A DNA stretch of 64,000 nt from Planctomycetota bacterium (GTDB lineage Bacteria > Planctomycetota > Planctomycetia > Planctomycetales > Planctomycetaceae): assembly GCA_003388505.1 (NCBI GenBank), contig QQVO01000059.1:62501-126500 (forward strand). Reading direction: 5' to 3'. The position numbers and the translations under genes were made by a program. This document shows positions 19,506-20,411 of the stretch, one piece after another; the stretch's first letter is position 1; every line of letters starts with the position of its first letter. The notes under the pieces are model-generated. The model had not been told where the DNA came from, searched no databases, and was given only the letters and a program-made list of their open reading frames with translations.

Positions 19506-20198
19506 ATCGCAATTCGTTTGGATTTCCTGAGTTCACTGGTTGACGGGGGGGTAGTCGCTGAATGGGGGCGGTTCAGATGTTTACAGGTCCACGCGTCGCT
19601 GCCGGCTGGGAGCCGTCGGGATCGAGTCGTACGCTGAAAGCGTACCACAGCAAAGCCAGGGATCAGCGAGCAACGCGAGCGTCATCCCTGGTCGTGAGTG
19701 CCTCAATCCCGGTGAACTCTGAAGGAGTTCCACAGTTTTTCCACCGGCTGTGGAACCCCGTTGGGGTTCCCGCGAACCTGTGGTCACGTGGACCGAGGGT
19801 GCGCTCCTGTCGTCGCGACCCTCGGCTTTGCTGTGCGACGCTTTCAGCGTCGTGTGTAATCGGTGCTCGAGATCACGAATCACGCTTCTCGAGTCGAGCG
19901 GCGCACAACCACGGCTCAAGCAGCACTGAACCTGCATATCACCCCCATTGAGCGACAACACCCCGGCTGACGACGCACGCCAACATCCGCTGTACGTGCA
20001 GTTCGATCCCGCAGTACAATGGAGGCGGCCGCTGGTCGCCGTTCGTGCAGTTGTCCTGTGAGACGAGGATCGCGAGCCTGCGGCCCGAACGGTCTCGATT
20101 CCATCAAAACACGAACCGTGTCAGATCGCAGCAACGAAGCTTCAGAACTTGGTATTCACATGTGACCGTTGGCATCGCCCCAATCGAAAGGAGTCCCC
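19506..20198. other. Long intergenic region with a cluster of hairpins
   Basis: About 690 bp with no conventional gene. The centre (19629-19852) holds a cluster of perfect short hairpins listed separately. The right end leads into the ribosome site of the selenoprotein gene at 20186-20192. A sequence GCAGTACAATGG near 20012 offers a possible -10 (TACAAT) without a good -35. Confidence 0.5.
19629..19852. repeat. Cluster of short hairpins inside an imperfect inverted repeat
   Basis: Outer arms (19631-19663 and 19819-19851) are imperfect inverted copies: ACGCTGAAAGCG...CACAGCAAAGCC against its reverse complement. Inside are GTACGCT-gaa-AGCGTAC (19629-19645), GAACTC-tgaag-GAGTTC, GTTCCACAG (19727-19735) with CTGTGGAAC (19748-19756), GGAACCCC-gtt-GGGGTTCC, and GACGCT-ttc-AGCGTC. 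Short 3-5 nt loops recur. Confidence 0.8.
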
Positions 20199-20411
20199 AT
20201 GCAGATTCGCATCACATACTGCAAAGAGTGAAACTACCGCCCCCAAGCCGCCGGTCTGGCGGACGCAATTCGTGACGACAAGGGCGTCGAGGCGGAACTG
20301 ATCCCGGGCGGAGGCGGGATCTTCGACGTCGAAGTCGACGGCCGGAGGGTCTACTCCAAATTCCAGACGGGACGATTTCCGGAGCACGAGGAAATCCTCG
20401 CGCAGCTCTGA
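20199..20411 (+). CDS. SelW-like selenoprotein (Rdx family) with in-frame UGA
   Basis: A 70-residue thioredoxin-like redox protein of the SelT/SelW/SelH (Rdx) family, encoded with TGA at 20229-20231 read as selenocysteine (residue 11). The N-terminus [20 protein letters not shown] gives the family CxxU redox motif right after beta strand 1. The second half carries [16 protein letters not shown] (39-54) and GRFPE (58-62), also diagnostic of the family. The frame is open apart from the TGA and ends at 20409-20411. A strong AAAGGAG ribosome site lies about 6 nt before the ATG. Nucleotides 20248-20262 form a SECIS-like hairpin. A conventional reading would stop after 10 codons or overlook the gene. 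No selA, selB, selC or selD is in this window. It is probably a cytosolic thiol/selenol redox protein. Confidence 0.9.
20248..20262 (+). promoter_or_regulatory. Putative bacterial SECIS element
   Basis: A perfect 5 bp stem CCGCC (20248-20252) and GGCGG (20258-20262) encloses the loop GGTCT (20253-20257). The loop begins 22 nt after the UGA. Known bacterial SECIS hairpins carry at least one G among the first two loop bases and lie roughly 16-37 nt after the UGA. The E. coli fdhF SECIS apical loop also contains GGUCU. It should recruit SelB. Confidence 0.8.

Follow-up and report, generated by a model that had tools for sequence, protein, structure and literature searches.

The window, that is, the full 64,000-nucleotide stretch of planctomycete DNA analysed here, carries on its forward strand a short gene whose frame opens with the ATG at 20199 and whose coding part (20199-20408) yields a protein of 70 amino acids when the TGA at 20229-20231 is translated as selenocysteine (Sec, U) (Table 1). 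Under translation table 11 the frame is broken by this TGA. A sequence-only reading of the window had singled out the frame running through YCKE-(UGA)-NYRPQAAG and later segments including GRFPE, with an AAAGGAG ribosome site ahead of the ATG; the letters are exact and the site is present, and translation bears out the further claim that this TGA is the sole in-frame stop before 20409. That reading passed over the fact that the gene also ends with a TGA, at 20409. No sigma-70-like promoter was detected upstream of the gene in a promoter scan, and an Rfam scan of the whole window returned no match at the gathering level.

Table 1. Features of the selW-like locus (positions in the window)
Feature	Position	Strand	Basis
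Shine-Dalgarno-like AAAGGAG	20187..20193	+	Sequence; 5 nt upstream of the ATG
selW-like selenoprotein gene, 70 aa, predicted Sec at residue 11, terminator TGA	20199..20411	+	Sequence, profile matches, predicted fold
TGC, Cys8 of the CxxU motif	20220..20222	+	TGC or TGT in every homologue
TGA, predicted to be read as selenocysteine (U11)	20229..20231	+	Same codon in homologues; TGC in the Cys orthologue
Predicted bacterial SECIS, upper stem-loop CCGCC-GGUCU-GGCGG	20248..20262	+	Comparative: loop conservation, stem covariation
TGA, true terminator of the selW-like gene	20409..20411	+	Next in-frame stop after 20229; TGA terminator in 30/65 sequences

An intergenic inverted repeat, recognised by eye, lies upstream of the gene at about 19632-19658 and 19824-19855 (ACGCTGAAAGCGT..CACAGCAAAGCC and a near reverse complement) and is possibly a dispersed repeat. 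A further inverted repeat, CGAGGAAATCCTCG (about 20387-20401), lies close to where the gene ends; when folded it is much more stable than its synonymous recodings (z -5.5), but it is followed by no T-run and gives a weak signal in homologues.

The 70-residue product, of roughly 7.6 kDa, is a member of the Rdx/SelW-like family with a thioredoxin-like fold. Membership of the Rdx domain family (PF10262), which had been proposed from the letters of the frame, is borne out by a match with an E value of 9.3e-18 (64.7 bits against a Pfam cut-off of 22.6), and the product also matches TIGR02174 (57.2 bits, cut-off 34.2) and, slightly over the cut-off of 88, NF041051 (SelT/SelW/SelH family (seleno)protein; 90 bits). 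The selW-like gene is the only Rdx match in the 6.78-Mb genome. Sequence relatives in the PDB include C17orf37/MIEN1, Atu0228 and bacterial SelW-related proteins, with mouse SelW matched weakly. The AlphaFold model of the product, built with 24 homologues, has a pLDDT of 96.9 and comprises a strand (residues 3-8), a helix (14-28), three further strands and two C-terminal helices. Its nearest structures are the SelW-related 2fa8, 2obk and 2oka (rmsd about 1.1-1.7 Å), with 2fa8 superposing at a TM score of 0.89-0.92 (rmsd 1.1 Å); across 2fa8, 2obk, 2oka and 3dex the fold is the same as that of the window protein (rmsd 1.0-1.7 Å), whereas the chains of the Rdx proteins of solved structure are longer and 2fa8 and 2oka, as aligned, have CxxC in place of CxxU. 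The motif of the read-through product, C8-K-E-U11, occupies the usual CxxU position of the SelT/SelW/SelH family, as had been supposed, with C8 at the end of strand 1 and U11 in the following loop of the model.

CxxU selenoproteins pass through a thiol/selenol cycle via a selenenyl-sulfide. With its minimal thioredoxin-like fold and C8-x-x-U11 lying between the first strand and first helix, the predicted product would cycle between the reduced CxxU form and an intramolecular selenenyl-sulfide; by analogy, thiol/selenol redox activity is its most likely function. There is a modest chance that the Sec protein is made and serves some other purpose, for example as a scaffold or a selenium carrier: none of the genes flanking its own (coding for a FAD-dependent protein, GGACT, glycogen phosphorylase and others) was conserved within the fetched flanks of the homologues, so that no operon or partner can be inferred and no neighbour hints at a pathway. 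The thioredoxin-like fold argues against such a role, as do the Cys and Sec columns of the CxxU motif, which are invariant in the subfamily alignment, as would be expected of a redox centre.

The distribution of the redox protein among relatives was surveyed with PF10262 in 150 genomes from the family of the window organism. SelW-like genes with one in-frame TGA are encoded in 35 of the 150, a result confirmed with the subfamily's own profile, and in an apparent 36th genome (G131) the gene is seemingly split over two contigs. The selA gene, above cut-off in 65 of the 150 genomes, accompanies the UGA form in all 35 cases and occurs in 30 of the 115 others (Fisher p 1.6e-16, only indicative since the genomes are not independent). 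A scan of GTDB contigs returned 44 loci, and all of those covering the site have the TGA with a Cys three residues earlier; by their record names they derive from Planctomycetota, Deltaproteobacteria, Gammaproteobacteria, KSB1, Calditrichota, Dehalococcoidales, Polyangiaceae and other groups. The UGA at the position of codon 11 is common to 65 distinct sequences from many phyla. The homologues thus keep the CxxU/C pattern that the sequence-only reading expected of a selenoprotein, with Cys in one case, the close orthologue of genome G067 (CRQCSY), where a TGC stands at the Sec codon and no stop is present; this is a natural Sec/Cys exchange, such as a selenoprotein should show. More distant Rdx proteins contain CxxC. 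With UGA kept in 35 family genomes against only one Cys orthologue, it may tentatively be suggested that the compact 70-residue SelW subfamily is Sec-dependent, its role being poorly served by Cys and the gene usually being lost when the Sec pathway is, although we hold this to be somewhat less probable than the contrary. A second, divergent Rdx gene, also with one in-frame TGA, was observed in two relatives (G050:C172:3077-3280 and G035:C190:820-999).

Downstream of the UGA, a predicted SECIS hairpin pairs 20248-20252 with 20258-20262 (+20 to +34, with numbering from the U of the UGA) and presents the loop GGUCU at +25 to +29, with GU at +26/+27. Bacterial SECIS elements carry a G in the apical loop at about 16-37 nt after the UGA (the rule applied by bSECISearch), and the window element has both the loop G and the distance typical of bacterial selenoproteins; its GGUCU loop is like the one in the fdhF SECIS of E. 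coli. When folded alone the window hairpin is no more stable than its dinucleotide shuffles (single-sequence folding, z about 0), so that comparative analysis was needed, and it is from this that support for the hairpin derives. Among the distinct sequences the loop G (+26) is present in 65/65 and the U (+27) in 61/65, while the stem pairs +24/+30, +23/+31 and +21/+33 vary on both sides (C-G, G-C, U-A and others). The paired fraction in register is 0.83 across the 65 unselected sequences, against 0.59 or less at any slide from -8 to +8. A covariation score of 0.447, against 0.125 when shuffled, was obtained with 25 sequences hand-picked for diversity, a set from which many stems with A.C mismatches were left out; some relatives have such a mismatch or another loop size. 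When the genes are recoded with synonymous codons, only the segment between +13 and about +42 folds clearly better than the recoded versions (mean z about -1.3; next lowest segment -0.6). Taken across the homologues, these patterns point to a covarying bacterial SECIS hairpin placed as expected after the UGA.

The genome (98.8% complete, 78 contigs) also encodes the pathway by which such a codon would be decoded. The genes selA, selB, selC and selD, which the sequence-only reading expected to find, are all present: one tRNA, with a score of 66.5 bits against the tRNA-Sec model, is called tRNA-Sec with anticodon UCA by ARAGORN, and selB (340 bits), selA (529 bits) and an oxidoreductase::selD fusion (282 bits for the SelD part, cut-off 125) lie consecutively on one contig (C33). 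In this fusion (L093:7840-10350) SelD is located behind an NADH-dehydrogenase-like FAD domain (pyridine-nucleotide oxidoreductase, TIGR03169, 368 bits). The conservation of the frame past the UGA would also be expected if the code were changed and UGA stood for Trp or another ordinary amino acid. We give this a very small probability, since this complete set of Sec genes is present, the adjoining genes are open under table 11, the aligned Cys form speaks for Sec rather than Trp, and the selW-like gene itself terminates in UGA, as do 29 more of the 65 sequences; the use of UGA as both Sec codon and terminator within one gene argues against a general change of code and is what SECIS-dependent decoding predicts. 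Interruption under table 11 would also fit a SelW homologue that a nonsense mutation in codon 11 had turned into a pseudogene. This reading is scarcely credible: it is refuted by the 65 distinct sequences from various phyla that all have a TGA at this codon, together with the conserved protein beyond the codon and the covarying hairpin.

It is therefore almost certain that the gene at 20199-20411 stands alone and encodes a small selenoprotein of the SelW-like (Rdx) family, the UGA at 20229 being decoded as Sec. In the cell, SelA and SelD would make Sec-tRNA-Sec, which SelB would deliver to the ribosome at this UGA; the hairpin about 20 nt downstream would assist, and translation would run on to the second UGA at 20409.

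Further selenoproteins were sought in the genome by searching a few families. A second candidate was observed at locus L096 (contig C1:390017-390415, minus strand; TGA at about C1:390301), where an open frame behind HEAT-like repeats encodes a Prx-like domain (AhpC-TSA, E 3.5e-27) with the motif T-U-P-V-C, followed downstream by a SECIS-like hairpin with the loop AGUU. UxxC Prx-like selenoproteins are already known. No UGA-bearing formate dehydrogenase was found in a search of the molybdopterin family.

SelW-like CxxU selenoproteins are an established bacterial family according to the parts of PMC1794560 considered here, and are given in the corresponding parts of PMC2398784 as the most abundant selenoprotein family in the Global Ocean Sampling data (427 Sec and 56 Cys forms). 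As described in those parts, the family shares the Rdx domain, the CxxU motif and the Sec position with the window protein, which is a planctomycete member with nothing essential to set it apart; the same parts report no planctomycete SelW-like protein. In the Epsilonproteobacteria, SelW genes are reported to have been missed by annotation (PMC4607533), and translation through the UGA of Campylobacter jejuni SelW (CJnc60) is supported by ribosome profiling and proteomics (PMC11955535). NF041051, whose cut-off the window protein exceeds, is named SelTWH_Campy. C. jejuni SelW is one of the nearest known counterparts of the window protein; it is from another phylum and has 80 residues rather than 70. 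The planctomycetes P1 and P2 from Porphyra have been described as carrying a full set of Sec-insertion genes together with several predicted selenoproteins, of which the main text of PMC4807772 names fdhA and fmdB and not SelW.

The selW-like gene is thus real and was correctly read from raw sequence, and it belongs to an already known family. SelW-like selenoproteins are among the best known in bacteria and the gene will not surprise a specialist, nor does it alter the general picture of bacterial selenoproteins. A gene finder taking every TGA as a stop would cut it after codon 10. Its recognition documents the use of Sec in this planctomycete family and provides a clean comparative set for the evolution of the SECIS element, comprising 65 sequences and one Cys exchange.
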